A DNA stretch of 64,000 nt from Sulfurimonas lithotrophica (GTDB lineage Bacteria; Campylobacterota; Campylobacteria; Campylobacterales; Sulfurimonadaceae). The notes under the pieces are model-generated. The model saw only the letters and a program-made list of their open reading frames with translations, was not told the origin of the DNA and did no database searches. Both the position numbers and the translations under genes were made by a program. Below, piece after piece: positions 38,500-58,823 of this stretch; the first letter of the stretch is position 1; every line of letters begins with the position of its first letter. The stretch is from contig NZ_CP043617.1 in NCBI RefSeq assembly GCF_009258225.1, positions 124,001 to 188,000 on the forward strand, read 5' to 3'.

Positions 38500-38540
38500 A
38501 TTTTCCGCGAACATTATTATTTAATTTAGAAAAAATTTAT

Positions 38541-39818: not shown

Positions 39819-39927
39819 ATGAGTAAAGAGCTTTAGCTCTTTGCATGTTTCTTTGAAAATGTTTTAAGACTATTACAATAGTCTAAAACATTTATTTAGA
39901 AAACATTTAGTTTTCTACTTTCTTCGA

Positions 39928-39957
39928 GTCAAAGAGTTTATCTCTTTGGCTTTTCTT
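39928..39957 (+). terminator. Intrinsic terminator of flagellin 2
   Basis: It is the same stem and loop as after copy 1, followed by TTTTCTTATT, so the T-tract is shorter. Sequence identity between the two copies ends here. Confidence 0.75.
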
Positions 39958-39978
39958 ATTCCTAAGCACTTTTTTATT

Positions 39979-39995
39979 TTGGAACAAGTTTTGCT
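39979..39995 (+). promoter_or_regulatory. Sigma-54 (RpoN) promoter of flagellin 3
   Basis: TTGGAACA-AGTT-TTGCT has the invariant GG (39981-39982) and GC (39993-39994) separated by exactly 10 bases, matching the RpoN -24/-12 consensus TTGGCACG-N4-TTGCW. No FliA box is seen upstream of this copy. Helicobacter and Campylobacter likewise have a sigma-54 minor flagellin gene (flaB). Confidence 0.85.
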
Positions 39996-40029
39996 AAAAC
40001 CTTTTTAATATTTAATAAAAGGATTTGTT

Positions 40030-41205: not shown

Positions 41206-41223
41206 AAGTTAGTTAAAAAGTGT

Positions 41224-41249: not shown

Positions 41250-43211
41250 CTACTGCACTATCTCATCTATCATTGAGTCGTAAAAATTTACAATTTCTTT
41301 CATATTTTTGTAAATCATTTTTTTCATGTTTTTAATATGTTTCTTCTGATTTTTGAGTTCTCTCGTATTAAAAAAATCTACAATATATGTAGAAGTATTT
41401 AAAATGTATATACTTAAAATTTCTTGTAATTCATTTCTTTGAGAGTTAAATATAATGCTTAACATTTCGGTATAATTTCTGATAAAAGTAATATCATCAC
41501 TGCTGGCAGATTCGTAAAATTTTTCAATTGCTTGTTTATAAGTTAATATTTTAGATTTTCTGTCAGCTTGTGTAAGTTTATGACTTGAAATGGATTTTAA
41601 ATAATCCAATATATTTTTTTTATTTATTGGTGTTGTTAGTGAAGTAGAAACATAGGCATCTGTTTTAAAAGGTATCACGTTTTCAAAATATGCACCATCG
41701 TTAAGATTAAAAACTTTTTGAGAGTCTTTTTTTAATACAGACGTATAAAAATTAATGTAAGGTATAGACATGGCAAAAAGTGGTGTAGTTAAAACTTTTT
41801 CTCTAAAATTTCCTTTTACATGAAAAGTACTTTTGTCTAGTGATATATTTTGATTTAGTTTTTCACTACTAGATATATCAAGCTTTTTATTTAGTTGGTG
41901 ATTATCAGTGTGCGTACTCCCATCATCACTTATCGCTAAATCCAAACCAAGAAAATATATATTTTTGGCATTTAAGTACAAAGAAATAGCATACATATAT
42001 TCACCTATACTTGCAGCTTCTATTTTTTGGTGTTCAGAAAAATAGTTAGTTCTGTCTTCTGTTAAAAATATATTTTTAGAAGGAAAAAGTTTAAATAAAG
42101 TATCCGGTACTGATGCACTAAATATACATATAGCATCTTTTAAAATCGACACATCTCCAATCTTATCTAGTAGTTTCGTTGTCGCTAAAACTTTTTCATC
42201 TATTTGTAGAACAAAATCAGGTGTAATTGATTGTTTCTTTAGTGTTGGAATTGAAGCTAAAGCAGCAAATATTATAAATTCATCTGCATATTTACTCAGC
42301 CATTTTAGATTTTTATCTAGTGAAGGCCCAGCCCCGATTATCAATGCAGGTTTATCAGCAAAAATATTTAATGATGGATCAGACTTTAAATTTAAAAAAT
42401 TATATTTTTCATTAATCCTTTTTAAAACTTGCTTATTTTTATGCAATAAAAATTCATGTGGATAAGTTTTTTCTGTTCTACTTATTATAAGTTCTTGTAT
42501 CATTTGAATTTTTTGTTCATAAGCATCTGAAAAAAGTGAAAATTTAATGAAATGATTTCTTACAAAAGAATCTAGATAAAAGCTATAAAAAATATTTTTG
42601 AACTCTTCTTTAGTATGAGCTATGGAAAAAAATGCAATTTTACCATCAAGTATTTGTTTATAATTATTCACAAATAAGGATAATCTAAAAAGTTCAATAT
42701 CATCTTCTATTATTAAGATAGAGTTTGAATTAGTTGTGTTCAAAACACTATTCAAATGAAGACCAAGTCCCAATCCTATAAATATAATTTTATTAATAGA
42801 TTTTAAAGAATCGGTTTTATGAATATTATTGTTATAATACTGAATTATTTCGGCAGAATTTGAATACATAGACATTGCATCGTTTGTTTTAGATTTATCC
42901 AGAGCTTTATCTGAAAAATCATAGTTATAAAATGTCTCAAAAACTTGTTCATTCTTCTTAAAAGATATTTGTTTAGCCAATTTATCCGAATATATATTTG
43001 AATCTTGGTTGTATAAAAAATTTTTGCTTGATAAATCTATGACATCAAAGTACCCGTTTCTATATTCCAAATCATATTTTTGAGGTAGTTCTCCCTCTTC
43101 CATAAGAATTTCAAGAGCTTTAACTTTAGTAAAAACTGCTTCATAATTTTTCTCAAGATAACTCATGTTTTCATTGTAGTTGTTTATAACTTGTTGTTCA
43201 ATACTATTCAT
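41250..43211 (-). CDS. Maf-family flagellin nonulosonic acid transferase (DUF115)
   Basis: The 653-residue protein belongs to the motility-associated factor family. An N-terminal domain (about 1-140) precedes the DUF115 Rossmann core with IIFIGLGLGLHLNSVL and SILIIEDDIELF, then PALIIGAGPSLDKNLKWL (about 285-303), and ends with a helical C-terminal part. Maf proteins transfer CMP-activated pseudaminic or legionaminic acid to flagellin Ser/Thr in the cytoplasm. Its place beside three flagellins and neuABC is the classic arrangement. The start is the ATG at 43211 after GGAG; a GTG at 43217 is also in frame but overlaps the ribosome binding site. Confidence 0.88.
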   Translation of the reverse strand: MNSIEQQVINNYNENMSYLEKNYEAVFTKVKALEILMEEGELPQKYDLEYRNGYFDVIDLSSKNFLYNQDSNIYSDKLAKQISFKKNEQVFETFYNYDFSDKALDKSKTNDAMSMYSNSAEIIQYYNNNIHKTDSLKSINKIIFIGLGLGLHLNSVLNTTNSNSILIIEDDIELFRLSLFVNNYKQILDGKIAFFSIAHTKEEFKNIFYSFYLDSFVRNHFIKFSLFSDAYEQKIQMIQELIISRTEKTYPHEFLLHKNKQVLKRINEKYNFLNLKSDPSLNIFADKPALIIGAGPSLDKNLKWLSKYADEFIIFAALASIPTLKKQSITPDFVLQIDEKVLATTKLLDKIGDVSILKDAICIFSASVPDTLFKLFPSKNIFLTEDRTNYFSEHQKIEAASIGEYMYAISLYLNAKNIYFLGLDLAISDDGSTHTDNHQLNKKLDISSSEKLNQNISLDKSTFHVKGNFREKVLTTPLFAMSIPYINFYTSVLKKDSQKVFNLNDGAYFENVIPFKTDAYVSTSLTTPINKKNILDYLKSISSHKLTQADRKSKILTYKQAIEKFYESASSDDITFIRNYTEMLSIIFNSQRNELQEILSIYILNTSTYIVDFFNTRELKNQKKHIKNMKKMIYKNMKEIVNFYDSMIDEIVQ

Positions 43212-43890
43212 AAACACTCCATTTATTTAAAATTGCTTCGCAAATCTCCAAGTCATTTTGTCCGTCAATATCTATACTTTTTTCATCACTCATAATATAT
43301 GATATACATCTATTTGAAATAAGTTTTTCATGTTTTAAAAATTCACTTGTGGAAATTATGTATATTGCACCGTTTGGCATATATACTTTTGGAAGAGATT
43401 GTCTAGGCATAAATGGATATTCATTATTTGAAATTGGTTCTAAATAGCCGTTTTCATCTATTTTAAATGATTTTAAAATTTTATTGTCAATCTCTTTAAC
43501 ACTTATCAACGAACTTGCTTTTTCACGAATAAGTAAATCAATAGAATTATCGATATCAAAAGAATCTCTGAGTGGAGATGTCGGTTGTAAAAGAACAATA
43601 AAGTCAAACTCTTCATCTAAAGAATTCAATAGATGTTTTATAACCGGTTCAGATGGTGTATTATCAAGTGCCAAAGTCGATGGACGTAGTATTACCTCTG
43701 AACCAAAAGCTTTTGAAATATCCAATATTTTTTTGGAATCACTACTAACTATTGTTTTTGAGATATATTTTGATTTTAAGCTTGCTTGTATTGTCCACGC
43801 TATTAACGGTTTGTTAGAAAGAGTAGCTATATTTTTATCTTTTAATCCTTTTGAACCTTCTCTAGCAGGTATAATAGAGAGAAATTTCAA
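43204..43890 (-). CDS. neuA: CMP-nonulosonic acid cytidylyltransferase (NeuA/LegF-type)
   Basis: The 228-residue enzyme activates a nonulosonic acid with CTP. Its N-terminus, IIPAREGSKGLKDKN (about 5-19), is the CTP-binding signature, and PLIAWTIQASLKSK, LLQPTSPLR and YMPNGAIYI follow in order. The product would feed the Maf transferase, which overlaps it at its start by eight bases. The neuC gene overlaps upstream by four. Whether the sugar is N-acetylneuraminic, legionaminic or another acid cannot be told from the sequence. Confidence 0.9.
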   Translation of the reverse strand: MKFLSIIPAREGSKGLKDKNIATLSNKPLIAWTIQASLKSKYISKTIVSSDSKKILDISKAFGSEVILRPSTLALDNTPSEPVIKHLLNSLDEEFDFIVLLQPTSPLRDSFDIDNSIDLLIREKASSLISVKEIDNKILKSFKIDENGYLEPISNNEYPFMPRQSLPKVYMPNGAIYIISTSEFLKHEKLISNRCISYIMSDEKSIDIDGQNDLEICEAILNKWSVYE

Positions 43891-45017
43891 ATTAAATCCT
43901 TGAATTGTTTTTGATTAGAAGTTTCCCAAAAGTTATCATTTTTTATAAGTTCTAAAAATTTTTTGTCACTGTTCCCATTTCCAAAATCTACATCAGTTGT
44001 ATTTATATTTATTTTTTTATACTCTTGAATTGCATCTAGAATATCAGACTTTTTAAAACCTATATTTTTGATACTATTAGATTTAACTCTGTTGTTCTGT
44101 CTATTTCCTAAATTTATAGTGTTGATATTATAGTAAGGTGCTTCTCTTACACCTGCACTTGAATTCCCTATAATAAACTGTGCGTTTTTTAGTAATACTA
44201 AAAAATATTCAAATCTTAAAGAGGGATATACCTTTATTTTTGGATTATTATTAAATCTGTTATATTCATTGATAATAATATCTGATCCTAGATCATTATT
44301 TGGAAAAATTACTATATAGTTCAAACCGCTTTGTATAATAGATGACACTAAAGTATCTATTTGGCTTTTTAAGTTAGATACCTCTGTAGTAACAGGATGA
44401 AACATCAATATTGCGTATTCTTGAAAATCTATCTGGTAATATTCTTTTACAAAGTTTATATTAGGTAGGTTTTTTGAAGCCATGATATCTAAATCAGGGC
44501 TACCGATAGTAAATACAGAGTTTTCATCTTCTCCCATCTGAATCAATCTTTTTTTAGCTTCTTCATTTGATGCAAGGTGTATATGAGAGAGCTTGCTTAC
44601 GCTATGACGTATAAGTTCATCAATAGTCCCGGATATTTCACCACCTTCTATATGAGCGACTAAAATATTGTTTAGACTACCTACAATTGCACCGGCAAGC
44701 GCCTCTACCCTATCTCCGTGAACTACTATTAAATCAGGTTTCAATTCAGCTGTATAGGAAGAAAAACCATCTATTGTTTTTGCAAGATTTCTATCCATAT
44801 GATCTATATCGTTATGGTTTATAAAAGGGTATATATTTTTAAAGCCGGATTTTTCAATCTCTATGATTGTTTTGCCATACTTGGCAATCATATGCATACC
44901 AGTTACAAAGAGGTGCACATCAAATAGTTCGCATTCTTGTGATATTTTTATTAATGATTTTAGTTTGCCAAAGTCTGCCCTAGTACCGGTTAAAAAGACA
45001 ATTTTTCTTTTATTCAT
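43887..45017 (-). CDS. neuC: UDP-sugar 2-epimerase, hydrolysing (NeuC/LegG-type)
   Basis: The 376-residue protein makes N-acetylmannosamine, or its 2,4-diacetamido analogue, from the UDP-sugar. [15 protein letters not shown] at the N-terminus, [16 protein letters not shown] (about 95-110), [18 protein letters not shown] and [13 protein letters not shown] (near 285) are the family motifs. It overlaps neuB by eight bases and neuA by four. LegB and LegC dehydratase and aminotransferase genes are not adjacent, so a sialic-acid type product or remotely encoded early steps are both possible. Confidence 0.88.
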
Positions 45018-46050
45018 TTATATCAGTCCAGTCGATATGAATATCATTTTCTATATCTTTTATTGCTGTTTTTCCTATTATCGATTCATAGTGTTCAGCT
45101 TTTATAGCGCCTGTTCCCGGTCTTTTTACCCATATATTGTCTTTTGAAAATTTATCGCCTTTTTTTATAGGTTTTATACTAACAACGGTTGCAAAAGCAA
45201 AGTCTATAGTCACTTGTTCCTCTTTAAGGGCTTCTTTTTTTCCGCCTCTCATTAATGCAATGTTTTTAGAACCTTCAATTAATTCTTTTAGTGCATCAGG
45301 ATTCATAGAATTTACAATATCAGGACCGTTTCTATCCATACTATCTGTAAAATGTCTTTCTAAAATAGAGGCTCCTAAAGCCGTAGCTGCATAACAGGCA
45401 TGGTTAGAAGTTGTATGGTCGGACAAACCAACTATAGCATTTGGAAATTCATTTATTAGCTCAGTCATGGCTCCAAGTCTAACTAAATTTGGTGGAGTCG
45501 GATATAAGTTAGTTGTGTGAAGAAGGGCATACGGAACTTGATGTTTTTCTAAAATGGAAACAGTTTTTTTTACGCTTTGAATATCGTTCATACCTGTACT
45601 GATTATCATAGGTTTTTTAAAAGAAGCTATATGCTCAATTAGTGGATAGTTATTGCATTCACCTGAACCTATTTTATATGCACAAATATCCATCTTTTCT
45701 AGTCTATCTGCTGCTGCTCTTGAAAAGGGTGTAGATATAAATATCATTCCTAGTGATTCTACATATTCTTTTAATTTTAATTCATCTATTTCATCCAGTG
45801 CGGCATTTTTCATAATTTCATATATTGAAATATTTGCATTTCCTGGAATAACGTCTTTGGCTTTTGAACTCATTTCATCGTCTATAACATGTGTCTGATG
45901 TTTTATAACTTCAGCACCAGCTTTGTAAGCAGCATCAACCATTTCTTTAGCAATTGAAAGTGAGCCGTTATGATTAATACCTATTTCTGCAATTACTAAG
46001 GGGGCATAGTCTAAACCGACTTTTCTATTACAAATTTCTATGAAATTCAA
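45010..46050 (-). CDS. neuB: Nonulosonic acid synthase (NeuB/LegI-type)
   Basis: The 346-residue enzyme condenses phosphoenolpyruvate with a 6-carbon amino sugar. The TIM-barrel core shows [53 protein letters not shown] and an [14 protein letters not shown] loop near residue 242. A C-terminal antifreeze-like SAF domain (about 285-346) follows. It is the central enzyme of the pathway in this operon and precedes neuC and neuA. The exact acid is not deducible by eye. Confidence 0.92.
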
Positions 46051-46607
46051 GAGTTTCCTTTAGATATGTAATAAGAATATATTATATGGTCTAGAATCAT
46101 ATGTGCATCTTCTACAAGTCCATACTCATCTTTTTTTGTCGGTATATGAAAGTTAATATCAGATAATTGTTTTAATTTACCACCATCAAATCCGGTAATA
46201 CCAATGATTGAAGTGTTCTGTTCTTTTGCGTATTTTACAGCTTTGATAATATTTTCAGAGTTTCCACTGCAAGATATTGCAATGATTAAATCTTCTTTTT
46301 TTAGAATGTCTTTTAGTTGCATATAAAAAACATTTTCATAACCAATATCATTTGAAATTGCACTACATACAGGTGTGTTGTCACTAAGACTCATTACATC
46401 AAATTTTTTTATATTTCTTCTCTTTAGACCGACACCTAAATCATTTACCATATGAGAAGCTGTAGCAGCACTTCCTCCATTGCCTAATATATATATCCTA
46501 CCTTTTGTCGCATCAAGTTTTTTTACTATTTTCGAGACTGTATTAACATCTATATTTTTTAAAATATCAATTAGGTTTTCAATATAGCTTTTAGCAAATT
46601 CTTGCAT
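46047..46607 (-). CDS. SIS-domain phosphosugar isomerase (GmhA-like)
   Basis: The 186-residue protein has the SIS fold with [21 protein letters not shown] (about residues 33-53), and later [19 protein letters not shown], as in sedoheptulose-7-phosphate isomerase GmhA. It overlaps the start of neuB by four bases and is the first gene of the nonulosonic acid operon. It may make a heptose precursor, or act on an amino-sugar phosphate feeding neuC. The gene diverges from the first CgeB-like gene at 46671, 63 bp away. Confidence 0.8.
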
Positions 46608-46670: not shown

Positions 46671-48086
46671 ATGTTTGAGGATACTTATTTTTTTAATTCA
46701 CAAGAAGCTTTGAGAGTAGCAAGACTGCAAAATAAGCCATCAAGATATGTACTTCAAATTTGTTATTACCATGGAGATAAAATAGACCATGAAGGTTTAG
46801 AAAATTTAGTTCATTTACCGGTGGATAATATAGTTAATGATTTAGCTTTAGGTGTATATAGGATTCCAACTAAGGTTGATTTTACAGGTTTAGATATATC
46901 ACAAGATGTACAGAATGATATTTTACAATCACTAAAAGAGTCCATTACACAAGCAACAGCAATTAGAAATGAACTAAACAAACATTATTTTGAAAGTTTA
47001 CAAAATGCTAAACTTAACTTTAATGAAAATCTTAGGTTTTATCTTATAGCCTCTTCTAATACGCAAGTTATGCAGCATATCTCTGCAAATATTGCTAGAA
47101 CTCTTGAAAAACTAGGATATGAAGTTTTGTTTAATTTAGATGTCGGTGTAAAAGATATGAACTGCTTAAAAGAGTTAAAAGAGTTTAACCCGCACGTAAC
47201 AATAAATATAAATCATTTGAATAATAGAATGTTAAGTGACGATGTTTTTAATTTTGTTTGGATTCAGGATTTATTTGCAATAGAGCAGTTTAAGCATACG
47301 AAAGTAAGAGAAAGAGATTTTATTTTTCATTTAGTAAAATCTTTAAAAGATCATTTGAGTAAGTTGAGTATAAGTTCAAAATATCAAGGTTTTTGTATTG
47401 ATACTAATTTATATAAAGAAGATGATTCAATTGAGAGGCAAAATAAAGTAGTGATGATAGGCTCAAGCTATAAACAAGTTTTTGAAGAAGTAAAACACGA
47501 AAAAAAAGAAGAAATAGCTAAAGATTTAATGGATTTTTATACTTCTAGTGAAATAATAACATATGATACTAATAATAAATATTATGAATTCTTAATGGAA
47601 AAATATGATATTAAGCAAAGTCAGGTGTTAGGACAAATTAATAACTATGTATTAAGAGATGGTTTTTTAGAGTATATCACAAATATAAATCTTGATTGTA
47701 ATATAGAATTGTATGGTTGGGGTTGGGAGAATCATCCGCGATTAAATCAGTTTTTTAAAGGGGTGTTAACATATGGAGAAGAAATATCTAAAATTTATAA
47801 TAGTGCAAAATATTCATTAGTTTTAGGTGGGTATATATTACAACAAAGAACATTGGAGTCAGCAGCTAGTGGCTGTATTCCTTTAGTGTTTGATAGTAGA
47901 TACAACAATGCTGGCGATGAAGATGAAAAATGTTTTGAAGATAGCTTGTTGTTTTTTAAGAGACCTTATGACTTGAAAATATTGTTGTCACAAGAACATA
48001 ATAAAGATTTAGACTGTATTGTAAATGAAAATAGTTTTGAACAATTTGTTGATAAAATGATCAGTTTAGTTAATAAACACATATAA
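46671..48086 (+). CDS. CgeB-like glycosyltransferase, paralogue A
   Basis: The 471-residue protein has an N-terminal domain that I cannot name (about 1-130), a Rossmann-like middle part (FYLIASSNTQVMQHI, then FNPHVTININHLNN and FVWIQDL near 190-200) and a C-terminal Glyco_trans_1_2 (CgeB) domain with LYGWGWENHP and YSLVLGGYILQQRTLESAASGCIPLVFD (shown in part, about 380-415). It likely adds a sugar to flagellin or another surface glycan. Its last 50 or so residues closely match paralogue B. It is the first gene of the AT-rich island, and the next gene starts one base past its stop. Confidence 0.75.
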   Translation: MFEDTYFFNSQEALRVARLQNKPSRYVLQICYYHGDKIDHEGLENLVHLPVDNIVNDLALGVYRIPTKVDFTGLDISQDVQNDILQSLKESITQATAIRNELNKHYFESLQNAKLNFNENLRFYLIASSNTQVMQHISANIARTLEKLGYEVLFNLDVGVKDMNCLKELKEFNPHVTININHLNNRMLSDDVFNFVWIQDLFAIEQFKHTKVRERDFIFHLVKSLKDHLSKLSISSKYQGFCIDTNLYKEDDSIERQNKVVMIGSSYKQVFEEVKHEKKEEIAKDLMDFYTSSEIITYDTNNKYYEFLMEKYDIKQSQVLGQINNYVLRDGFLEYITNINLDCNIELYGWGWENHPRLNQFFKGVLTYGEEISKIYNSAKYSLVLGGYILQQRTLESAASGCIPLVFDSRYNNAGDEDEKCFEDSLLFFKRPYDLKILLSQEHNKDLDCIVNENSFEQFVDKMISLVNKHI

Positions 48087-48087
48087 A

Positions 48088-48773
48088 ATGAAGACATATT
48101 TAGACACGTATTTTTTAGATTCCAAAACAGCTTTAGATACAGCTTTAAAAAAGAACTTGGTCATGGCTAAAAATGGAATAGTCAGCGGTTTACAAATATG
48201 TTATTATGATGGTGAAAGAATAGAAAATGAACCAGAAAATTGCATACATGTTCCTTTTAATTCAATTGTAGATTATTTTATAAAAACAAAAAATAGATTC
48301 CCAAGTTTAATTAACAGTGACAATACAAACTTATCAACTACAGAGCTTTCAGAATTACAAGATGAATTTAAAAAAAGTATGAATAAAGTGCAAAATATTT
48401 TAGATAATAAAATAATAAATATAAAAAAGGAAATTCAAAAGTTAAAACCAAATTTTAACGATGAGAAGCTGAGAATTTTTGCATATGGGTGTAGAGAGAC
48501 AGTATTAATAAAACATTTAGTAAAAAATATTTTAATAGCTGCTGATGAGTTGGGATATGAAACATATTTACATACTCAGGACAATGATATGGAGTCATGT
48601 AATGAAGTTTTTTATTTAAAGGCTCTAAGAGATTTTAATCCACATATAACAATAAATGTAAATCATTTAAATAACGATTTTATAAGTGATGAAGTATTTA
48701 ATTTTATTTGGTTTCAGGATTATATGCCTTTATTACGCAAAGAATCTCCACCAATTCACTTAAGAGATAGAGA
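48088..48773 (+). repeat. 686-bp direct repeat, copy 1 (5' part of paralogue B)
   Basis: The segment from the ATG through codon 228 is repeated at 50799-51484 with no difference that I could find by eye, after which the two genes diverge at once. The preceding bases (ATATAAA with a similar context) also match. Confidence 0.9.
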
Positions 48774-49542
48774 CATTGTTTATTTTCTTACTGAGCATTT
48801 AGGTAAGCTTTTAAGAGAAAAAGATATACCTTCTAAATATCAATCATTTTGTATAGATACAAATATTTATAAAAAAAGAAGTAATATTGAAAGAATTAAA
48901 AAGATAGTATTTATAGGATCTTCTTATTTAGAGCGTTATGAAAGTGTAATTACACCAGATAAAGAAATAGCTTGTAAGGAGTTGTTTGAACTGAATATAA
49001 AATACGGGTATGAAGCTATAGGAATAAATAAATCAGAATATTTAGCAGAAAAGTATAATATAAGTGAGAAAGATATAAGTTCTTTACGGGGATATATTCA
49101 ACGAGACTTATTGCTAAAATATATTATAAATTTGAATTTAGATTACGAGATAGAGGTTTATGGGTATGGTTGGGAATATGATAAAGATATATTTAAACAT
49201 TACAAAGGTCATTTAGCATATGGCGAAGATATTTCAAAAGTATACAACAGCGCTGTATATGGGTTAGTAGTAGGCGGATATGTAATGCAACAAAGAACAC
49301 TTGAATCAGCAGCTTCTGGGGCTATTCCACTAGTTTTTGATGCTAGAGAAAGTGGTGCAGATCTAAATCATAAGTGTTTTGAAGATAGCTTATTGTTTTT
49401 TAAGAGACCTGATGATTTAAGAATATTACTGTCGCAAGTACATAATAAAGATCTAGATTGTATTGTTAATGAAAATAGTTATAAACAATTTGTTGAAAAA
49501 ATGGTTGGTTTAGTTAAAAAGGAATTGAATGAGCAGTTATAA
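48088..49542 (+). CDS. CgeB-like glycosyltransferase, paralogue B
   Basis: The 484-residue protein has the same layout as paralogue A: a unique N-terminus (LDTYFLDSKTALDTAL), a middle with ITINVNHLNNDF and FIWFQDYM, and a CgeB C-terminal domain with GYGWEYDKDI and GGYVMQQRTLESAASGAIP. Its first 686 bases recur without visible change in paralogue C, while its C-terminal end resembles paralogue A. A sulfotransferase-like gene overlaps its stop by 14 bp. A function in flagellar or surface glycan assembly is inferred from the family and neighbours. Confidence 0.75.
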   Translation: MKTYLDTYFLDSKTALDTALKKNLVMAKNGIVSGLQICYYDGERIENEPENCIHVPFNSIVDYFIKTKNRFPSLINSDNTNLSTTELSELQDEFKKSMNKVQNILDNKIINIKKEIQKLKPNFNDEKLRIFAYGCRETVLIKHLVKNILIAADELGYETYLHTQDNDMESCNEVFYLKALRDFNPHITINVNHLNNDFISDEVFNFIWFQDYMPLLRKESPPIHLRDRDIVYFLTEHLGKLLREKDIPSKYQSFCIDTNIYKKRSNIERIKKIVFIGSSYLERYESVITPDKEIACKELFELNIKYGYEAIGINKSEYLAEKYNISEKDISSLRGYIQRDLLLKYIINLNLDYEIEVYGYGWEYDKDIFKHYKGHLAYGEDISKVYNSAVYGLVVGGYVMQQRTLESAASGAIPLVFDARESGADLNHKCFEDSLLFFKRPDDLRILLSQVHNKDLDCIVNENSYKQFVEKMVGLVKKELNEQL

Positions 49543-50797
49543 AAAAAATGTAATAATATCTTCATTTGTAAAATCAGGTACTGTACTTTCAGATGCTATT
49601 ATAACAAGATTGACTAATCTGAAAAAATATAATGTTATAGATAATGAGAGCTTAGATAAAAAAGTTTCAAATTATATTGGTGAAGCTTCTAGCTTTAGTT
49701 TTGGTGGATTAAATAATATTACATTTAATTCAATAGATATAGCAACAAATTTTCATGATAAAAACAATAGCATTTATAAACATATGTTGTTGGATATAAC
49801 AGATATTATTGACTTGAAAAATTATACATTATATACAGGACATATGAACCCTTTAGGAATAATCGAAAATAGAATTACAAATGAAATAGAAAAAAAAATA
49901 TATGTATATAGGTATGGTTTAGATGTTCTTAATTCTAAAATGAAGTTTATAGAAAATTTACCATGGGTATATGACGTTATGACTACTTTTGATGGTAATC
50001 AAAAAAAGTTTCAAGCATTAAGATATACATCAATTGATAAAATAGTTGATTTTATTAATAGTTGGATGGAACATATCAAAGGGTACTTAAAATATGAAAA
50101 TGAATTTTATGGATTAAATTACGAATTACTTCTGTCAAGTCCCAAAAAAGAAATAAAAAGATTAGCCAACTATTTGGAAGTTAGTATAAGTGAAGAAAAA
50201 ATTGAAGAGCTAATTCAAGAAGTATTTTACAAGGAACTGTCGAGTGGCACAAGTCGTAACATGTATTATAAACATTATAATGATGAAGAAAAAAGTAATC
50301 AATGGAAAGAATATTTACCATATCAGTTTTATAGTGACTTTAATATGAAGTTCAAACAAGAATTGAATAAGCTTGGGTTGATAGATAGAACTAATATAAA
50401 ACCTTATAAAAATAATGATTTTCACAAAAATTTTATCAGAAAATATCAGTTGTTTAAAGAAAGAGAAAAATATGATATATATAATAAAGGAGTTAATAGT
50501 TTTATTGAAACTTTAGTAACTTTTTTGGAAAATAAAAAAATTATTGTTTTTGGAAGTAACGCATATACTAATATAGTATTAAGTAAATTAAAACCAAGTA
50601 CGGAAATTGTTATGGTAATAAAAGATGATAGATGTAGAACTAATTATAAAATATTACTAGAGAATATTTTATATTATGATTATATTTTAGTTGGTATTAA
50701 ACCGGAAGCATTTACAGAAACAAAGGATATTTTAAGAGATATTTTAAAAGAACAAGGAACTATAGAAGTTATTAATTGTTATGATAAACATATATAA
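49529..50797 (+). CDS. Sulfotransferase-like protein with C-terminal Rossmann-like module
   Basis: The 422-residue protein begins with IISSFVKSGTVLSDAI (about residues 8-23), similar to the PAPS-binding loop PKSGTTW, and then KIYVYRYGLDVLNSKMKF (about 123-140), like the 3'-phosphate-binding motif, with WMEHIKGYL and LNYELLLSSPKKEIKRLANYL typical of sulfotransferases. The C-terminal 90 residues form a separate strand-helix module beginning KKIIVFGSNAYTNIVLSKL. The product could sulfonate a glycan, though PAPS supply was not seen in the window. The fold is likely; the activity is inference. It ends one base before paralogue C. Confidence 0.65.
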   Translation: MSSYKKNVIISSFVKSGTVLSDAIITRLTNLKKYNVIDNESLDKKVSNYIGEASSFSFGGLNNITFNSIDIATNFHDKNNSIYKHMLLDITDIIDLKNYTLYTGHMNPLGIIENRITNEIEKKIYVYRYGLDVLNSKMKFIENLPWVYDVMTTFDGNQKKFQALRYTSIDKIVDFINSWMEHIKGYLKYENEFYGLNYELLLSSPKKEIKRLANYLEVSISEEKIEELIQEVFYKELSSGTSRNMYYKHYNDEEKSNQWKEYLPYQFYSDFNMKFKQELNKLGLIDRTNIKPYKNNDFHKNFIRKYQLFKEREKYDIYNKGVNSFIETLVTFLENKKIIVFGSNAYTNIVLSKLKPSTEIVMVIKDDRCRTNYKILLENILYYDYILVGIKPEAFTETKDILRDILKEQGTIEVINCYDKHI

Positions 50798-50798
50798 A

Positions 50799-51484
50799 AT
50801 GAAGACATATTTAGACACGTATTTTTTAGATTCCAAAACAGCTTTAGATACAGCTTTAAAAAAGAACTTGGTCATGGCTAAAAATGGAATAGTCAGCGGT
50901 TTACAAATATGTTATTATGATGGTGAAAGAATAGAAAATGAACCAGAAAATTGCATACATGTTCCTTTTAATTCAATTGTAGATTATTTTATAAAAACAA
51001 AAAATAGATTCCCAAGTTTAATTAACAGTGACAATACAAACTTATCAACTACAGAGCTTTCAGAATTACAAGATGAATTTAAAAAAAGTATGAATAAAGT
51101 GCAAAATATTTTAGATAATAAAATAATAAATATAAAAAAGGAAATTCAAAAGTTAAAACCAAATTTTAACGATGAGAAGCTGAGAATTTTTGCATATGGG
51201 TGTAGAGAGACAGTATTAATAAAACATTTAGTAAAAAATATTTTAATAGCTGCTGATGAGTTGGGATATGAAACATATTTACATACTCAGGACAATGATA
51301 TGGAGTCATGTAATGAAGTTTTTTATTTAAAGGCTCTAAGAGATTTTAATCCACATATAACAATAAATGTAAATCATTTAAATAACGATTTTATAAGTGA
51401 TGAAGTATTTAATTTTATTTGGTTTCAGGATTATATGCCTTTATTACGCAAAGAATCTCCACCAATTCACTTAAGAGATAGAGA
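50799..51484 (+). repeat. 686-bp direct repeat, copy 2 (5' part of paralogue C)
   Basis: Identical by eye to 48088-48773, offset by 2711 bp. Homologous recombination between the copies would delete or duplicate paralogue B's 3' part and the sulfotransferase-like gene. Confidence 0.9.
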
Positions 51485-52265
51485 TTTAATATACCATTTG
51501 ACAAATGACCTTAAAGAAATTATCTTCAATAAAGGTATTTATTCAGAATTTCAATCTTTTTGTATGAACGAAAAAATATATAAACCAAGACCAGAAATAT
51601 TAAAAGAGAAAAAAATAGTTTTTATAGGTTCTTCATATAAAGATAGAATTAATGATATAAAGTTAGATCCTGATTTTCAATTAGTTTTTAATGAAGCAAA
51701 AGATATTTTTGAAAAAAAAAGTTGTTTGACGAATTTAACACATCCTAAAAGTGATTTATTATTTTTAATGCAAAAATATTCTAAATCATTGGATTATGTA
51801 AATGGTATAAATGCTTATCTAATCAGAGATTATTGTGTTGAAAAATTATGTAGCATTAATACAAACTATGAAATAGAAATATATGGATGGGGATGGAATG
51901 AAAATAAAAAAATTCAACCATACTATAAGGGAATAGTTGAAAACGGAGAAAGTATATCAAAAATTTATAATAGTGCAACTTATGGTTTTTGTCCTGGATC
52001 ATACATCTTAATGCAAAGAACACTTGAATGTGCTTTTAGTGAAACAGTACCATTAGTTTTAGATGTGAGAGAAGATAAACAAGAAGAATATAATAATAAA
52101 ATAGAAGAATCTTTAGAATTTTTTCATATAGGAGACCTAGAAAATATATTGAATAGTGATTCTGAAGTGAAGAAAACTTTTGCCTATATTAAAGAACAGT
52201 ATAGTTACAAAAAGATAATAAATAATTTCATGGCTAGTGTGAATAGGGTAATTAATGAAAAATAA
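50799..52265 (+). CDS. CgeB-like glycosyltransferase, paralogue C (chimeric)
   Basis: The 488-residue protein shares its first 228 residues exactly with paralogue B. It then switches to an unrelated-looking version of the same fold: DLIYHLTNDLKEIIF, a different linker, and a CgeB C-terminal domain with IYGWGWNENKK and GSYILMQRTLECAFSETVP. An in-frame ATG lies 18 bp upstream at 50781, but paralogue B and the repeat start both point to 50799. The gene overlaps the next CgeB-like gene by 11 bp. It is most simply explained by recombination that replaced one half of a paralogue. Confidence 0.78.
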   Translation: MKTYLDTYFLDSKTALDTALKKNLVMAKNGIVSGLQICYYDGERIENEPENCIHVPFNSIVDYFIKTKNRFPSLINSDNTNLSTTELSELQDEFKKSMNKVQNILDNKIINIKKEIQKLKPNFNDEKLRIFAYGCRETVLIKHLVKNILIAADELGYETYLHTQDNDMESCNEVFYLKALRDFNPHITINVNHLNNDFISDEVFNFIWFQDYMPLLRKESPPIHLRDRDLIYHLTNDLKEIIFNKGIYSEFQSFCMNEKIYKPRPEILKEKKIVFIGSSYKDRINDIKLDPDFQLVFNEAKDIFEKKSCLTNLTHPKSDLLFLMQKYSKSLDYVNGINAYLIRDYCVEKLCSINTNYEIEIYGWGWNENKKIQPYYKGIVENGESISKIYNSATYGFCPGSYILMQRTLECAFSETVPLVLDVREDKQEEYNNKIEESLEFFHIGDLENILNSDSEVKKTFAYIKEQYSYKKIINNFMASVNRVINEK

Positions 52266-53397
52266 TACTATAGCTTTATTTATGCCATCAAAAACGTCAT
52301 TTTATGATGGTTTATTTAATTCTCTTAAAAAGGCATTTGAACACCATGGATATGAAGTTACAGGAGGATGTGGGTTTTTATCTGGAATAAAATTAGATTT
52401 ATTTATTAATAAATATAATCCCAAAGTATTTTTCGAAATGAATCGTTGCAAAAGTGAAATTAATAATTTTCCTAAAAATATTTTACATATATGTTGGTTA
52501 GTTGATTTGTTGGGAAGAAAACTTGAAAATATTACCGGTAGTGAAATAGTATATTTCTTTAGTACGGAATGGATGAAAGATTTTAAGCACTCAGAAAATT
52601 GTAAAATTGGATGGTTACCACCAGCTTCAGATCCAGAAGAATATTATCCAATTAAAGACCATAAAAAGATATTTAATAGTGTTTTTTTAGGACATATTCC
52701 AAACCCATGGAGTAATGATTTATTAAATAGAATTGTATGTGAAGATTCGAATAAAAAGATTATATTTTCTGATGTATTAAATCAATTTGAAAATATATGG
52801 GGAAGTCAAGATTCCATAGTAAATAATGATATTTATATTAATGAGGTAATTGATTGGTTAAGAAAAAATAATTTTGTAAGTATTGATATCACAGATAAAA
52901 CCCTAAGATATGATATAGGTTGTAGAATTATAAGAAAAGCAAGACGATTGTTTTTCTTGGATTGGTTGTTAGAGAATATTGATATTGAGCCTATGGGAAT
53001 TTTTGGCGGATCAAATTGGAAAAATTGGTCTAAATATAAAAATATGTATCAAAAAGAACTTTTAACTACTAAAGAAATGAATAATGTTTATAATAAAACT
53101 AAATTATTAATACATGAAGGAGTTGGATTCCATTTTAGAGTATTTGATGCAATGCTTGCAGGTACTCCCGTAATCATTAGAAAGTCAAAACAAGATAATG
53201 ATTTTGGTGGTATAGCAACCATGTTTGATGAGAATATAGAATATATATCAATAGATATAAACAAATTTCATAAGTTTCAGTTTGATGACGATATATTGAA
53301 TGATATTTCAGACCGAGCAAGAGAAAAAGTGTTATTAAATCACACTTGGTTTCATAGGCTCTCACAAGTTGTTAAGGATATTAATGATGTCATTTGA
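52255..53397 (+). CDS. CgeB-like glycosyltransferase (fourth)
   Basis: The 380-residue protein is a more typical CgeB-type transferase: IALFMPSKTSFYDGLFNSLKKAFEHHGYEVTGG (shown in part) opens the N-terminal Rossmann domain, and LLIHEGVGFHFRVFDAMLAGTPVIIRK lies in the C-terminal sugar-binding domain (near residues 283-309). It is not closely alike to paralogues A to C. It overlaps the next methyltransferase gene by 14 bp and lies in the same polycistronic run. The sugar donor and acceptor are unknown. Confidence 0.78.
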   Translation: MKNNTIALFMPSKTSFYDGLFNSLKKAFEHHGYEVTGGCGFLSGIKLDLFINKYNPKVFFEMNRCKSEINNFPKNILHICWLVDLLGRKLENITGSEIVYFFSTEWMKDFKHSENCKIGWLPPASDPEEYYPIKDHKKIFNSVFLGHIPNPWSNDLLNRIVCEDSNKKIIFSDVLNQFENIWGSQDSIVNNDIYINEVIDWLRKNNFVSIDITDKTLRYDIGCRIIRKARRLFFLDWLLENIDIEPMGIFGGSNWKNWSKYKNMYQKELLTTKEMNNVYNKTKLLIHEGVGFHFRVFDAMLAGTPVIIRKSKQDNDFGGIATMFDENIEYISIDINKFHKFQFDDDILNDISDRAREKVLLNHTWFHRLSQVVKDINDVI

Positions 53398-54412
53398 TAA
53401 AGATTTTTTTTCTGATAGTGTTCATAAATATATTGCATATAAAGATATTGATAAAACATTAGAAAAATATGAAAAACGTATATTAAATGAATTGAAACTA
53501 AGAGGTTATGGACCAGAGTTTTTAAAAGATAAAATAATAATTGATATTGGAACTGGTTTTCAGGCAATTATTGCTTGTTTAATGGGGGCAAAATTTATTT
53601 ACCATCTTGATATTAGTACTAAACAAGTGTCATGGATGAAAGACTATTGTACATTAAATAATATTGAAAATATAAAATCTATAGAATGTGATATTACAAA
53701 AAAAATAGATGTCGCAGAAAAGGTAGATATAGTATTTGTTTTTGGAATTTTGAATCATTTGGAAAAGCCAAGTAGATTTATGAATAATTTAATCCCTGTT
53801 TTAAATTTAAATAAGTCTCATATATTATTTAGAATCTATCGTTCAGGAAGCTGGAGTCGTTGGTTGGTTTCATATTTAAGAGAAATTTCTAATAAAATTG
53901 ACCATGATATAATTGAAAACAGATTTAAGATTATGTATCAAAATGATCAATATAATCAATATTATGGAGATCTTATGGATGATTTATATGCTCCTATATG
54001 GAAAGTTTTTCATCCTAGACAATTCGATATAAATAATATAACGAAAATGATTGATAAAGAAGATTGGGATTATAACTTTAGTAGTCGTGATGAAAATTTT
54101 AGGGTAGATATTAATGTAAATAAAAAAAATATACAACATTTAAGAAACTTTAAATTTCCAGATGTAGGTATAGAACAAAACAGGCTAAGCGTAGGAAATA
54201 ATAATGCAAAGCTTTTAAAGATTCATAATCTATTTGAAAAATGGAATTTAATGGATGAGCTACCTTTAGATAATGCAGATCGATTGTTAAAGATATATGA
54301 ACTTGTTAGAAAAAAATCTGTTAATGATATTGAAAGTAAATTCAATTTAGATAAAGAAGAAAGAATAGACCTATTATTAAATATTTTAGAGTCATTTGTA
54401 GAGGATATTTAA
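53384..54412 (+). CDS. Class I SAM-dependent methyltransferase
   Basis: The 342-residue protein has a motif I of IIIDIGTGFQAIIACLMGAKF (about residues 55-75), the acidic YHLDISTKQV loop, and DIVFVFGILNHLEKPSRFMNNLIP. The C-terminal 150 residues are not assigned and include a helical part. The start is the ATG at 53384 (ATGATG) preceded by TTAAGGA; upstream TTG starts are less likely. A carbamoyltransferase follows with a one-base overlap. O- or N-methylation of a sugar is plausible given the neighbours. Confidence 0.75.
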   Translation: MMSFDKDFFSDSVHKYIAYKDIDKTLEKYEKRILNELKLRGYGPEFLKDKIIIDIGTGFQAIIACLMGAKFIYHLDISTKQVSWMKDYCTLNNIENIKSIECDITKKIDVAEKVDIVFVFGILNHLEKPSRFMNNLIPVLNLNKSHILFRIYRSGSWSRWLVSYLREISNKIDHDIIENRFKIMYQNDQYNQYYGDLMDDLYAPIWKVFHPRQFDINNITKMIDKEDWDYNFSSRDENFRVDINVNKKNIQHLRNFKFPDVGIEQNRLSVGNNNAKLLKIHNLFEKWNLMDELPLDNADRLLKIYELVRKKSVNDIESKFNLDKEERIDLLLNILESFVEDI

Positions 54413-56097
54413 TGTATATTTTGGGAATAAGTTGTGGTGGTGAGAGCGGTGTTGCATTGTTTAAAGATAGTGAGCTTATTTGTGCATCAAATGAAGAGAG
54501 GTTTAGTAGAATAAAGTTAGATATGTCATTTCCAAAAAAAGCATTAGAATGGTGTCTTAACTATGCAAATATTGAATCAGATCAAGTTGACCTTATAACA
54601 TATGGTTTTTCAGCCGGCTGTGAAACATTGAGTCAAAAGCTTAATTGGCTTGATACTTTAATGTCAATTGATACGTCTAAAGATGATGCAAAAATTATTA
54701 AAGATAGGGTTATAACTGAAACAGAAATTGATGCGCAAAAATATAAAGAGTTTTTGCTTGAAGTAAAATCTTTTTTTAAGAGAGATATTTTAATAGAACG
54801 AATTAATCATCATATTTCGCATGTAGCAACAGCATATATCGCTTCTGGAATGGATAAAGCATTAGTAATAACTGCAGATGGAAGGGGCGATTATAGATCA
54901 GTTACTATATGTATTGCTACAAAAGATGGTTTTGAAGAGTTATACATTTCTCCTAGTTGGAATAGTTTAGGATATTTTTATGGTAGAATGACAAAGCTTT
55001 GTGGTTTTACAGCTAATAGGCATGAAGGAAAAGTGACTGGTTTAGCAGCATCTGGAGATTATAAAAAAGCATTAAGTTTTGTTAAAAAAATGATTTACGT
55101 CAAAAATGGAAAAGTTATATCCAATATAGGGGATTATTATAGACCATTTTTTAGTAATTATTCGCAAAAACTTTTAGATGAAGCTAGTAACTTCGATAAA
55201 AAGGATTTGGCTGCAGCTACTCAATATTATTTTGAAGAGATGATAGTAGAACTCATAAAATATTATGTTGATGAAACAAAGTTAACAAATATTGCTTTAG
55301 CAGGTGGTGTGTTTTCTAATATTAGTTTAAATCAAGCCATATATGAAATTAATAAAGATATTGATATCTTTGTATATCCAAATATGGGGGATGCAGGTAT
55401 ATGTGTAGGTAGTTGTTATGCATGGTTATGGGAGAAAAATAAAATTTTACCAAGCAGGATTGAATCAGTATATTTAGGTTATGAGATAAATTCTAAACTA
55501 CTGTATAATAAGTTGAAACAAACAGGTAGATATACAATTTTAAATCCAAATAATATCTATGATGAAATTGTACAGATGCTTATAGATGGAAAAACAATTG
55601 GTCTTGCAACATCAAATGCTGAATTTGGACCTAGGGCACTTGGTAATCGTTCTATTATTGCTTCTCCAAAAGATTTGAATGTAATAAAAAAAATAAATAA
55701 TCAATTAGGAAGAGATATATTTATGCCACTTGCTCCAATTATTCCTGTTGAATTAGCAGATAAGTTTATTTTATTAAAAAATGAAAAAAGTATTAATAAA
55801 GGTTATTTTATGACTATGACGTATGACTCAAAACCAATACTAAAAGATGTAGCTGAAGCTATAGTTCATTTGGATGGTACAGTTCGCCCACAATTTGTTA
55901 CTAAAGAAAAAAATGAATTTTTACACGGGTTATTAATGTATTGGTATGATAAAACAGGATCACCAGCTTTAATAAATACTTCATTTAATGCTCATGAAGA
56001 GCCAATTGTAAATGATGAAAAAGATGTAATTAATGCTTTGAATAATAATGTAGTTGATGCTTTGTTATTTCCACCATATATAGCTATTAATAGTTAG
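54412..56097 (+). CDS. O-carbamoyltransferase of the NodU/CmcH family
   Basis: The 561-residue protein carries the family start ILGISCGGESGVALFKDSELICASNEERFSR (shown in part; residues 3-33), the metal-binding INHHISHVATAY motif (about 133-144), a TADGRGD element, and the C-terminal YrdC-like domain with FGPRALGNRSI (near 405). It uses carbamoyl phosphate and ATP to carbamoylate sugar or antibiotic hydroxyls, as NodU does for Nod factors and CmcH for cephamycin. Here it probably decorates a glycan or metabolite from the same cluster. It overlaps the methyltransferase by one base. Confidence 0.87.
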   Translation: MYILGISCGGESGVALFKDSELICASNEERFSRIKLDMSFPKKALEWCLNYANIESDQVDLITYGFSAGCETLSQKLNWLDTLMSIDTSKDDAKIIKDRVITETEIDAQKYKEFLLEVKSFFKRDILIERINHHISHVATAYIASGMDKALVITADGRGDYRSVTICIATKDGFEELYISPSWNSLGYFYGRMTKLCGFTANRHEGKVTGLAASGDYKKALSFVKKMIYVKNGKVISNIGDYYRPFFSNYSQKLLDEASNFDKKDLAAATQYYFEEMIVELIKYYVDETKLTNIALAGGVFSNISLNQAIYEINKDIDIFVYPNMGDAGICVGSCYAWLWEKNKILPSRIESVYLGYEINSKLLYNKLKQTGRYTILNPNNIYDEIVQMLIDGKTIGLATSNAEFGPRALGNRSIIASPKDLNVIKKINNQLGRDIFMPLAPIIPVELADKFILLKNEKSINKGYFMTMTYDSKPILKDVAEAIVHLDGTVRPQFVTKEKNEFLHGLLMYWYDKTGSPALINTSFNAHEEPIVNDEKDVINALNNNVVDALLFPPYIAINS

Positions 56098-56106
56098 GTG
56101 TATGAG

Positions 56107-57210
56107 ATGTCATATAGTTCATTAATAAAGAATATACAAGTTCCAAATAAGCCATGTATACACCCTTGGTTTTATTTATGGATTAATGCAGCTGGTGATG
56201 CTACTATATGCCCGCAAAATAATATTCGTTTAGGTTCCTTAAATGATAGTTCATTAGAAGATATTTGGAATAATAAAAAGGTGCAAGATATTAGGAGTAA
56301 TTTTTTAAAAGGTCAGTATGAAAAGGCAGGTTGTGAACGAGAATGCCCTTACTTAAGAGGAGAATATAAACATGCTACTAAAAATATTCCTGTTGAAGAG
56401 TTGATATTTCCAGATATAAATATTGAAAATTTAAAAACAAATACTAAGCCTTATGTAAATATTTTAAAAGCAATTGATAGTTATAACTTGGGTTTACCAG
56501 AGACAACAAATAAACCTGTTGTTCTAGACTGTCAAAATATACTCACATGTAATGCAAGTTGTATTATGTGTGGACAACCACATTCTAGTAAATTGAAACA
56601 CTCTATAATTGTAAAAGATAAGATAGCTGAGTCTAGTAAATATCTGTGTGCTTTAAGATGGCAAGGAGGAGAAGTTTTTTTAGATCCTGAGTTTATTTCA
56701 AACATTTCACGAATATCAGAGATAGGTAATGATGATTTATTACAGATTATAATAACCAATGGATCGCTTTTGAATTTAGAAAATATTCACAATATAATTA
56801 ATCACACAGGGAAGGTAAAGTTTATAGTCTCTATGGATGGTGCAACAAAAAAAACTGTTGATAAAATAAGATATAAATTAAAGTATGAAAAAATACTAGA
56901 AAGCTTAAGGATTTTATCAGAAAAACAACAAGAAATCGGTATGTCAGATTTGGTGTTGTGGAACTACACGGTGATGAAGTCAAATATCGCTGAAGTAAGT
57001 AGTGCAATTAGATTAGCAAATAGCATAAAAATTAATATCAATATTGCTGCAATTCAAGGTAGCTATCCAGATGAAAATTTTTTTGAATTTGATTTAATAA
57101 ATAAAGCAGAATGGTTGAACTATATAGATGAATGGAAGCAAATAATTGATAATCTACAGATAAAAGTAAGTGGAGTAGATGGTTTAATAGAAAGATATTC
57201 TCTTTCATAA
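56107..57210 (+). CDS. Radical SAM protein with N-terminal SPASM/twitch-like domain
   Basis: The 367-residue protein has four Cys in a SPASM/twitch-like pattern at the N-terminus (Cys17, Cys35, Cys76, Cys80, with IRLGSLNDSSLEDIWNN between), and only then the radical SAM C-x3-C-x2-C motif (Cys148-Cys152-Cys155, CNASCIMC) with GGEVFLDPEF and SMDGATKKTVDKIR. In most SPASM enzymes the auxiliary domain is C-terminal. The order is reversed here, as in a known minority class. The chemistry is unknown; it could be an epimerisation, dehydrogenation or cross-link. A GTG at 56098 is an alternative start. Confidence 0.8.
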   Translation: MSYSSLIKNIQVPNKPCIHPWFYLWINAAGDATICPQNNIRLGSLNDSSLEDIWNNKKVQDIRSNFLKGQYEKAGCERECPYLRGEYKHATKNIPVEELIFPDINIENLKTNTKPYVNILKAIDSYNLGLPETTNKPVVLDCQNILTCNASCIMCGQPHSSKLKHSIIVKDKIAESSKYLCALRWQGGEVFLDPEFISNISRISEIGNDDLLQIIITNGSLLNLENIHNIINHTGKVKFIVSMDGATKKTVDKIRYKLKYEKILESLRILSEKQQEIGMSDLVLWNYTVMKSNIAEVSSAIRLANSIKININIAAIQGSYPDENFFEFDLINKAEWLNYIDEWKQIIDNLQIKVSGVDGLIERYSLS

Positions 57211-57248
57211 ATAGCAAAATTATTTATGACTATGATAAAAGGTATTTA

Positions 57249-58823
57249 ATGAATATTTTACTAATGACTGGAATAGCGAATGATCCAAAAGATACTGATT
57301 TGGCAGATCATATGCCAATCGGTTTAGGATACATAGCGGCAAATATTAAAAAGTTGACAGATTATAATATAGATATAATTGATGTAGAACATAAAGGTTA
57401 TTCAATAAATGATTTAATTGAAATAATTAGAAATAGTTCTATAGATATTATCGGAATAAGTGCTTTTATTTCAAATTATTTATTTTGTATAGAATTCACT
57501 AAAAAAATAAAAGATTGTTTTCCAAATATCAAAATTGTAATTGGTGGGCCTTTACCAACTAGTACACCAGAGCTAGTATTAGATAATTGTCAAGTAGATG
57601 TTATTGTTAAAGGTGCTGGTGAAATGGCATTTATTGATATTGTAAATAATATTAAGTTGGATTCATATTATTATAATTCCAATAATAACGTAGTTATTGG
57701 ATATTTTCCAGAAAATATGGATGATCTTCCATCTCCTGATTGGGAATTGATGGACTATAAATCTTATCACTATTTACCACCATGGTCTGATTTTCCTATT
57801 TTATCTAGTAGAGGATGCCCATACAAATGTAATTATTGCTATAAAATAAACGGAGATGTATTTAAAGAAAGATCTATAGATAATTTATTTGAAGAATTAT
57901 TATTTGTAATCAATAAACTTGAGCGTAAAACCTTTATGATGCAAGATGATTTATTTTTTGTAAAACCTAAAAGAGTTATTAATTTTTGTAATAAAATAAT
58001 AGAAAACAAATTAGATATTAAGTGGTCTGCAATTAGTAGAATAGATTTGCTAAACGAAGAAGTTGCTAAGTTACTATCCAAAGCAGGCTGTAAATCTGTT
58101 GGAATAGGTATTGAATCAGGCAGTAAAGATATGCTAAAAGCAATGAATAAAAAATTATCCCTGGAGAAAACGGCAAAAAATCTTGCAATATTGAGAAAGT
58201 ATAATATAAAAGCAATGCCTTATGTTATTATTGGTTATCCAGGAGAAACGTTAGAAACATTAAAAGAAACAGAAAGGTTTTTAATAGATAATAAAATTTA
58301 CTCAGGTATGACATATGCATTTCCATTTCCTGCTACTGAATTATGGAATATTGCTAAAGAAAGAAATATGTTACCGGATTTAAAAGATTATGCTGGCAGA
58401 AAGAGTTTTGATGTTTCAAAATTCCAATGGAATTTTACATCGATAGAAAGTAATATTTTACATAAATATGTAGAATCAATGAAAAATCGTGTTTTATCAG
58501 CATTTATTGATAATTATTTGAATGATAATAATCATAAATTAGATAAAGCTGATAATATTTTTATTTATGGTGTTGGTTTTCTCGGAAGAGGATTATATGA
58601 TAAATTGAAAAATAGTAAGTTTTCAGATAAGGTAGAAGCATTTATAGATGATGATCCATCACGTAATAATAAAGATTGTATGGGGCTTAGAGTATATAGT
58701 TTAAAAGAAGCAAATATTAAATCAAACGACTTATGTATTATAGCAAATAGCTATTTTCCAGAAATTATGGAAGAAAAAGTTAAAAACATAAATAACAATA
58801 TAAGTACAATTACTTTAGCTTAG
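57249..58823 (+). CDS. B12-binding-type radical SAM protein with C-terminal Rossmann-like module
   Basis: The 524-residue protein has a B12-binding-like domain (about 1-150, with IDVEHKG at 44-50, SAFIS near 71 and IGGPLP), a radical SAM core with C-x3-C-x2-C at Cys190-Cys194-Cys197 (GCPYKCNYC), and a C-terminal nucleotide-binding-like module starting NIFIYGVGFLGRGLYDKL (near 447). Cobalamin-dependent radical SAM enzymes often methylate unactivated carbon, but BchE-like members also do other chemistry. The C-terminal module seems to be a fusion. The gene converges with the epimerase, and the last 14 bp overlap. Confidence 0.82.
   Translation: MNILLMTGIANDPKDTDLADHMPIGLGYIAANIKKLTDYNIDIIDVEHKGYSINDLIEIIRNSSIDIIGISAFISNYLFCIEFTKKIKDCFPNIKIVIGGPLPTSTPELVLDNCQVDVIVKGAGEMAFIDIVNNIKLDSYYYNSNNNVVIGYFPENMDDLPSPDWELMDYKSYHYLPPWSDFPILSSRGCPYKCNYCYKINGDVFKERSIDNLFEELLFVINKLERKTFMMQDDLFFVKPKRVINFCNKIIENKLDIKWSAISRIDLLNEEVAKLLSKAGCKSVGIGIESGSKDMLKAMNKKLSLEKTAKNLAILRKYNIKAMPYVIIGYPGETLETLKETERFLIDNKIYSGMTYAFPFPATELWNIAKERNMLPDLKDYAGRKSFDVSKFQWNFTSIESNILHKYVESMKNRVLSAFIDNYLNDNNHKLDKADNIFIYGVGFLGRGLYDKLKNSKFSDKVEAFIDDDPSRNNKDCMGLRVYSLKEANIKSNDLCIIANSYFPEIMEEKVKNINNNISTITLA

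Follow-up and report, generated by a model that had tools for sequence, protein, structure and literature searches.

A glycosyltransferase gene as the putative site of recurrent exchange at the edge of a flagellin-glycosylation island in an environmental Campylobacterota bacterium

We have analyzed a stretch of 64,000 nucleotides (the window) from the genome of an environmental Campylobacterota bacterium, in which two neighboring glycosyltransferase genes, here called B and C, begin with exactly the same DNA and diverge abruptly inside codon 229. Going by its flagellin and the proteins near it, the organism is probably Sulfurimonas-like. The recurrence of breakpoints at this position among relatives, together with the decoupled histories of the 5' and 3' halves of these genes, indicates that the variable island begins inside the glycosyltransferase gene. 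In our view, these sequence comparisons probably place the exchange border of the island within the gene, the C-terminal half (C-half) and the cargo genes following it being exchanged behind a constant N-terminal half (N-half). The exact B/C repeat is probably a fresh product of this recurrent exchange. The explanation taken as a whole, with the border inside the gene, a constant N-half next to gmhA, exchange of C-half plus cargo and a division of acceptor and donor binding between the halves, appears to us fairly probable. It would mean that exchange at the edge of a surface-glycan island recurs at one point within a glycosyltransferase gene, and would offer a concrete rule for the diversification of flagellar glycans, i.e., fixed target recognition and an exchangeable sugar donor.

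The flagellin-glycosylation island

The left flank of the island contains three flagellins (37197-41208), a Maf gene (41250-43217, PF20157/PF01973) and NeuB/NeuC/NeuA-like genes of nonulosonate synthesis (43204-46050), and the right flank is formed by radical SAM, SDR and transketolase-like genes (60959-63831, forward strand). Glycan genes located beside flagellin, maf and nonulosonate genes are what defines a flagellin-glycosylation island, and this is the arrangement found here. Judging by this gene content A, B, the sulfotransferase and C lie in such an island, and their products presumably modify flagellin. The flagellin genes themselves (examined over 37094-41171) share long exact tracts: one of 606 bp, of which ~100 bp precede the start codon, links the first two genes, another of 301 bp lies on the 3' side, and there is a mosaic with the third gene, pointing to ongoing gene conversion.

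Moving rightwards, the first gene is a divergent gmhA-like gene for a sugar-phosphate (SIS) isomerase (46047-46607, reverse strand; TIGR00441-like in NCBIfam, below the curated cut-off), which is the fixed left neighbor of the first glycosyltransferase of the island. It is followed on the forward strand by the glycosyltransferase paralogue A (46671-48086), B (48088-49542), a sulfotransferase (49529-50797), C (50799-52265) and a further glycosyltransferase, D. The rest of the block, collinear with another genome (G064; see below), encodes a methyltransferase, a carbamoyltransferase, two radical SAM proteins, an SDR and an aminotransferase, and the right boundary starts at 60959. The sulfotransferase (Sulfotransfer_1, PF00685, E 3e-20) overlaps B by 14 nt and has a C-terminal extension of ~90 residues, Rossmann-like in resemblance; one radical SAM protein (57249-58823) has an ending similar in style.

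The exact repeat shared by B and C

A preliminary description of this region had noted by eye an identity between the beginnings of both genes. Base-by-base alignment of 48088-48773 with 50799-51484 gave 0 differences in 686 bp, and the identity ends inside codon 229 exactly as described, with a mismatch at the next base after codon 228 and two more bases. It had also been said to begin at the ATG; the 686 bp from the ATG are indeed identical, but the match reaches 7 bp further upstream, giving a direct repeat of 693 bp with 0 mismatches (48081-48773, N-half of B, and 50792-51484, N-half of C, both on the forward strand). Counted from 48073 and 50784, 14 of the 15 bases ahead of the ATG match (48073-48087, overlapping the 3' end of A, and 50784-50798, on the same strand). 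The two genes upstream of the copies, A and the sulfotransferase, are unrelated to each other, and each of them ends in ...KHI-stop followed by A-ATG. Past the breakpoint B (C-half at 48774-49542, forward strand) and C are only distantly similar, as had been observed, with ~52% nucleotide and ~37% amino acid identity.

With no differences at 686 sites, the 95% upper bound of the divergence between the copies is ~0.4%, which makes chance or an old duplication untenable. Near-zero divergence, abrupt ends and otherwise diverged paralogues characterize recombination between direct repeats, and B and C present all of these. Recent homologous recombination, already preferred over an old duplication in the preliminary description, is therefore supported as the sole reading that fits 0/686 differences next to a hard breakpoint. 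The greater conservation of N-halves in general (genus medians of 50% amino acid identity vs. 33% for the C-halves) might speak for an old duplication in which purifying selection was very strong but confined to the N-half. However, there are zero synonymous differences in 686 bp, selection at the protein level cannot preserve third positions, and the N-halves of relatives from other species are merely 30-94% identical in amino acids. We find this scenario hardly credible, since the 0/686 already refutes it unless selection acted on the DNA itself.

Searched at the DNA level, the complete genome (main contig of 2.378 Mb plus a small second contig) contains the repeat segment twice and no third copy of it, with an extra partial match (96 bp, 81%) inside paralogue A. 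Across the window, direct repeats that are exact over 25 bp or longer are restricted to the B/C pair and the three tandem flagellin genes. A perfect repeat of 693 bp exceeds the length of short reads, and the second copy, or its perfect identity, might stem from assembly or from polishing with short reads; a few differences could have been lost in polishing, and the counterpart N-half in G064 contains an assembly gap of 8 N. Against such an artefact stand the chromosome-scale contig, reading frames free of interruption and a stop-A-ATG junction that is the same on either side. Furthermore, a full-length C is expected, since G064 has a member of the family at the same place of the collinear block, and polishing would be unable to make a strongly diverged half identical. 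Altogether, we regard an artefact as improbable.

Genes that combine a common 5' half with a choice of 3' halves are typical of dedicated shuffling switches, such as a shufflon-like invertase, a transposon or an integron-type cassette system. But the B/C copies are direct, no inverted repeat pairs of at least 40 bp were found in the window, no recombinase appears among the annotated neighbors of the copies that were examined, there is no short conserved site at the edges, and no silent cassettes or orphan C-halves were found in the genome. With direct repeats only and no recombinase among the neighbors examined, a recombinase-driven phase-variation switch was rejected, and any dedicated switch seems very improbable.

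The sulfotransferase gene does lie between the copies, and its loss or duplication by crossover between them had been anticipated. Such a crossover would remove exactly 2,711 bp, corresponding to the C-half of B plus the sulfotransferase, leaving an intact C gene behind the stop of A, and the reciprocal event would duplicate the block. Because the gene junctions are tight (stop-A-ATG or short overlaps), deletion and duplication would both leave all reading frames intact.

Separate histories of the two gene halves

A way to look at the origin of the repeat is to dissect the relationships of the N-half and the C-half, split at residue 229 of B, within the members of this family. Alternative 3' halves attached to the same 5' half, the pattern for which a comparison of related strains had been proposed, are present across species (one genome per species) in the pairs G189/G222 and G064a/G064b. 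Specifically, amino acid identity in the N-half and the C-half is 100% and 37% for B/C, 80% and 34% for G064a/G064b, 94% and 49% for G189/G222, and 58% and 37% for G096a/b, whose N-halves are sisters in the tree. The opposite situation is also found. A, a third paralogue directly upstream of B and absent from the preliminary description, has an N-half of the common genus type and a C-half related to that of B, as domain-wise identities and trees agree (A/B: N-half 34%, C-half 55%). Similarly, C and G083 have 34% identity in the N-half and 59% in the C-half (the C-half of C is 59-60% identical to G083 and 57% to G064a). The contrast between halves is due in part to a C-half that evolves faster, but these reversals are not, and unequal rates alone would be expected to keep distances proportional, so they are insufficient to produce the decoupling. 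Within the A/B pair the last 110 codons (47780-48080 and 49230-49520) have ~77% nucleotide identity, rising up to 85% in the final 40, compared with 53% elsewhere; this looks like an older, separate exchange (fit at residue 376).

Maximum-likelihood trees of the N-half and of the C-half are in conflict at branches with 99-100% support. AU tests, for clades named after the trees had been seen, reject sisterhood of the C-halves of B/C (p 6e-7), G064a/b (6e-70) and G096a/b (1e-3), and the N-half test rejects the grouping of C, G083 and G064a (5e-5). The C-half clade G189+G179+G222 was not rejected (p 0.245), so that for G222 the tree test alone is no proof of a swap; here it is the difference in identity between the halves (92-94% in the N-half, 45-49% in the C-half) that suggests one. 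Two-segment fits for the pairs with a conserved N-half and a changed C-half placed the breakpoints at residues 211-238 of B, bracketing 229.

Over 25 islands GmhA distances correlate with those of the N-half (Mantel r 0.79, p 1e-4), compared with r 0.18 for the C-half, or -0.05 when the N-half is given. Within the genus the corresponding values are 0.75 for GmhA and N-half, 0.25 for GmhA and C-half, and 0.01 for the latter given the N-half. Between the type of C-half and the gene that follows, there is a weak but significant association (r 0.27, p 3e-4); the type of N-half shows none (r 0.12, p 0.08).

Related islands in other Campylobacterota

Relatives were searched in 200 genomes of the family, 135 of the genus and 399 of the order (one genome per species). 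Related genes appeared in about two dozen genomes, none above 43% amino acid identity to the B/C N-half. The best N-half relatives across family, genus and order (40-43%) included none close enough to polarize donor and recipient, a scan of genome contigs for relatives gave only three distant ones, and GC and GC3 of the gene pieces did not discriminate. A gene of the B/C family adjoins the gmhA-like gene in 25 of the 25 genomes mapped, i.e., the window and 24 other Campylobacterota loci. In ~10 relatives there is a single such gene beside gmhA, and the right-boundary genes follow directly behind it. One relative (G107, L059:12379-15270) has an open frame of 963 residues between the right-boundary genes of the island.

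Several copies of the glycosyltransferase family within the island were found in three genomes, the window, G064 and G096. In this small sample, each of the three islands has at least one pair with a common N-half clade and different C-half clades. From the 3' part of the N-half of C to the aminotransferase (51342-60802, forward strand) the window is collinear with G064 over 9.5 kb with 70.7% nucleotide identity, and in G064 the counterpart C-half sits in the gene beside gmhA, fused to another type of N-half. Likewise, the C-halves related to those of B and C are, without exception, joined to other N-half types. A relative of the sulfotransferase was found in one other genome of 228, directly behind a CgeB-like gene and also with an overlap of 14 nt.

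Predicted structure and the N-terminal module

The AlphaFold2 model of B (built from six sequences; pLDDT 80, pTM 0.73) has a predicted GT-B fold. Foldseek searches with it gave GT4-type enzymes such as BshA as top matches, with E down to 5e-8 and TM scores, normalized by target, of up to 0.57; both domains are Rossmann-like and the best fold matches are solved GT-B enzymes, which supports a GT-B assignment. In the model, residue 229 is located in a loop before the strand 230-233, ~25-40 residues ahead of the interdomain linker (~253-269). Hence, the breakpoint would miss the domain border proper and fall within the final beta-alpha portion of the N-domain, and the exchanged part would comprise the whole C-domain plus that portion. 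The label CgeB-like, used in the preliminary description, is loosely supported: A (25.6 bits) and B (25.4 bits) are just above the cut-off of 25 for PF13524 (Glyco_trans_1_2), but C has no match in Pfam. None of the three matched a family in NCBIfam.

GT-B enzymes generally bind the acceptor with their N-domain and the donor with their C-domain. By analogy, the N-half may recognize the flagellar acceptor, by means that would include its first 75 residues, and the C-half may bind the donor sugar-nucleotide. These first 75 residues are a separable module (75-80 residues in B, 48088-48330, forward strand, DTYF...QICYYDGE...HVP) with conserved DTYF, QICYYDG and HLP motifs and no description in Pfam, present in other enzymes too. 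In three genomes the same module starts a glycosyltransferase of 703-704 residues whose gene immediately follows fliD and is close to fliS (L123:6197-8308, L124:5277-7391 and L125:7407-9518). This genomic company suggests a role in the recognition of a flagellar protein, comparable to that of the N-terminal part of FlmG (see below).

The module is also found in other contexts. In G499 (L091:6280-8112) it is fused in frame to the C-terminus of a B12-radical SAM protein of an island there, the one clear case of an orphan half-gene fragment of the kind left as a recombination scar; the fusion could be such a scar or, equally, be functional. A gammaproteobacterial relative (L031:8001-9752) has the module twice in tandem. 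The neighboring NeuB-like gene there is 68% identical to that of the window, which suggests transfer between phyla. An unnamed module of 75 residues, common to several enzymes of flagellar glycosylation, is brought to light by these comparisons.

A model for the exchange

In the mechanism that we propose, the 5' half of the gene (~codons 1-229) would be the constant part, which stays with the neighboring gmhA and would also have been duplicated onto the 5' ends of other glycosyltransferase genes of that island, and the 3' half would be exchanged together with the cargo genes behind it. Crossovers would take place by ordinary homologous (RecA-type) recombination, probably through the conserved stretch at ~residues 183-235. 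C would have formed very recently, when the N-half it has in common with B was placed ahead of a C-half and downstream block that in G064 are found directly behind gmhA with a different N-half. We infer the dependence on RecA, the direction of this last B/C event and the effect on the flagellum. Given a division of acceptor and donor recognition between the halves, swapping the C-half would change the sugar added without loss of the target, and recurrent exchange would give the cell a way to alter its sugar and still retain the target-recognizing part.

The main rival to the insertion of a unit is plain gene conversion between old tandem paralogues B and C, in either direction and with no gain or loss of cassettes, which would make the pattern at the level of the island a separate matter. 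The flagellin genes of the same window, with exact tracts of the same sort, fit conversion, and so does the patchy identity of G064a/b, in which exact patches (the longest 74 bp, apart from >100 bp close to the start) alternate with diverged stretches in a conversion-like manner. Yet the left end of a conversion tract has to lie in homologous sequence, and here the identity runs past the gene start by 7 bp (or 15 bp with one mismatch), where the upstream genes are unrelated. Neither does conversion alone account for the C-halves with the same cargo that bear different N-halves in relatives. We consider it possible but rather doubtful. Insertion of a unit through the N-half most likely is the best account of an identity that reaches the gene start although the flanks are unrelated.

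More tentatively, although with slightly better prospects than plain conversion, the N-half might act as a landing site, units of C-half, cargo and N-half entering or leaving by recombination between N-halves. If this were true, each joint would leave an intact chimeric glycosyltransferase, and the flagellar glycan would be reversibly variable, with or without the sulfotransferase, behind a constant flagellum-recognition module. The natural chimeras B/C, G064a/b and G189/G222 provide direct material to test the division of labor between N-half and C-half in a GT-B enzyme.

Comparison with known systems

We found nothing pertinent in the literature on CgeB in flagellin glycosylation or on natural interdomain recombination in glycosyltransferases. 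CgeB / Glyco_trans_1_2 (PF13524) is the family that A and B match, and the predicted fold resembles GT-B enzymes such as BshA; here, however, the scores barely exceed the cut-off, C remains outside and the N-terminal module is not represented in Pfam. In type I restriction systems, one half of the HsdS protein is swapped by recombination and the other half is kept, changing the specificity. Unlike exchanges of the HsdS type, the one described here shows no inverted repeats of at least 40 bp in the window and no recombinase among the neighbors examined, and cargo genes move with the swap.

FlmG of Caulobacter crescentus has an N-terminal TPR domain with tested flagellin binding and a C-terminal GT-B part (PMC7591256). 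The likeness, a modular N-terminal recognition part followed by a GT-B part, is one of architecture: the N-terminal part is TPR there and an unnamed sequence of another kind here, with a putative role in binding.

The flagellin-glycosylation locus of Campylobacter jejuni is, like the one studied here, an island of sugar genes next to the flagellins, with repeated paralogues and prone to recombination; in one isolate kept in the laboratory, 15 genes (Cj1319-1333) had been lost, some of them for the flagellin glycan (PMC6700657). The repeated genes there are maf, with phase variation by homopolymeric tracts, whereas here they belong to another GT-B family and the break occurs at one recurrent position inside the gene. 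A, B and C are not maf paralogues of the C. jejuni kind, as no Maf domain (PF20157/PF01973) was found in them by Pfam. Recombination among paralogues in flagellin-glycosylation loci is thus already known from C. jejuni; what is new is that the position recurs within a single gene, that the N-half is linked to the fixed flank, and that a module is held in common.
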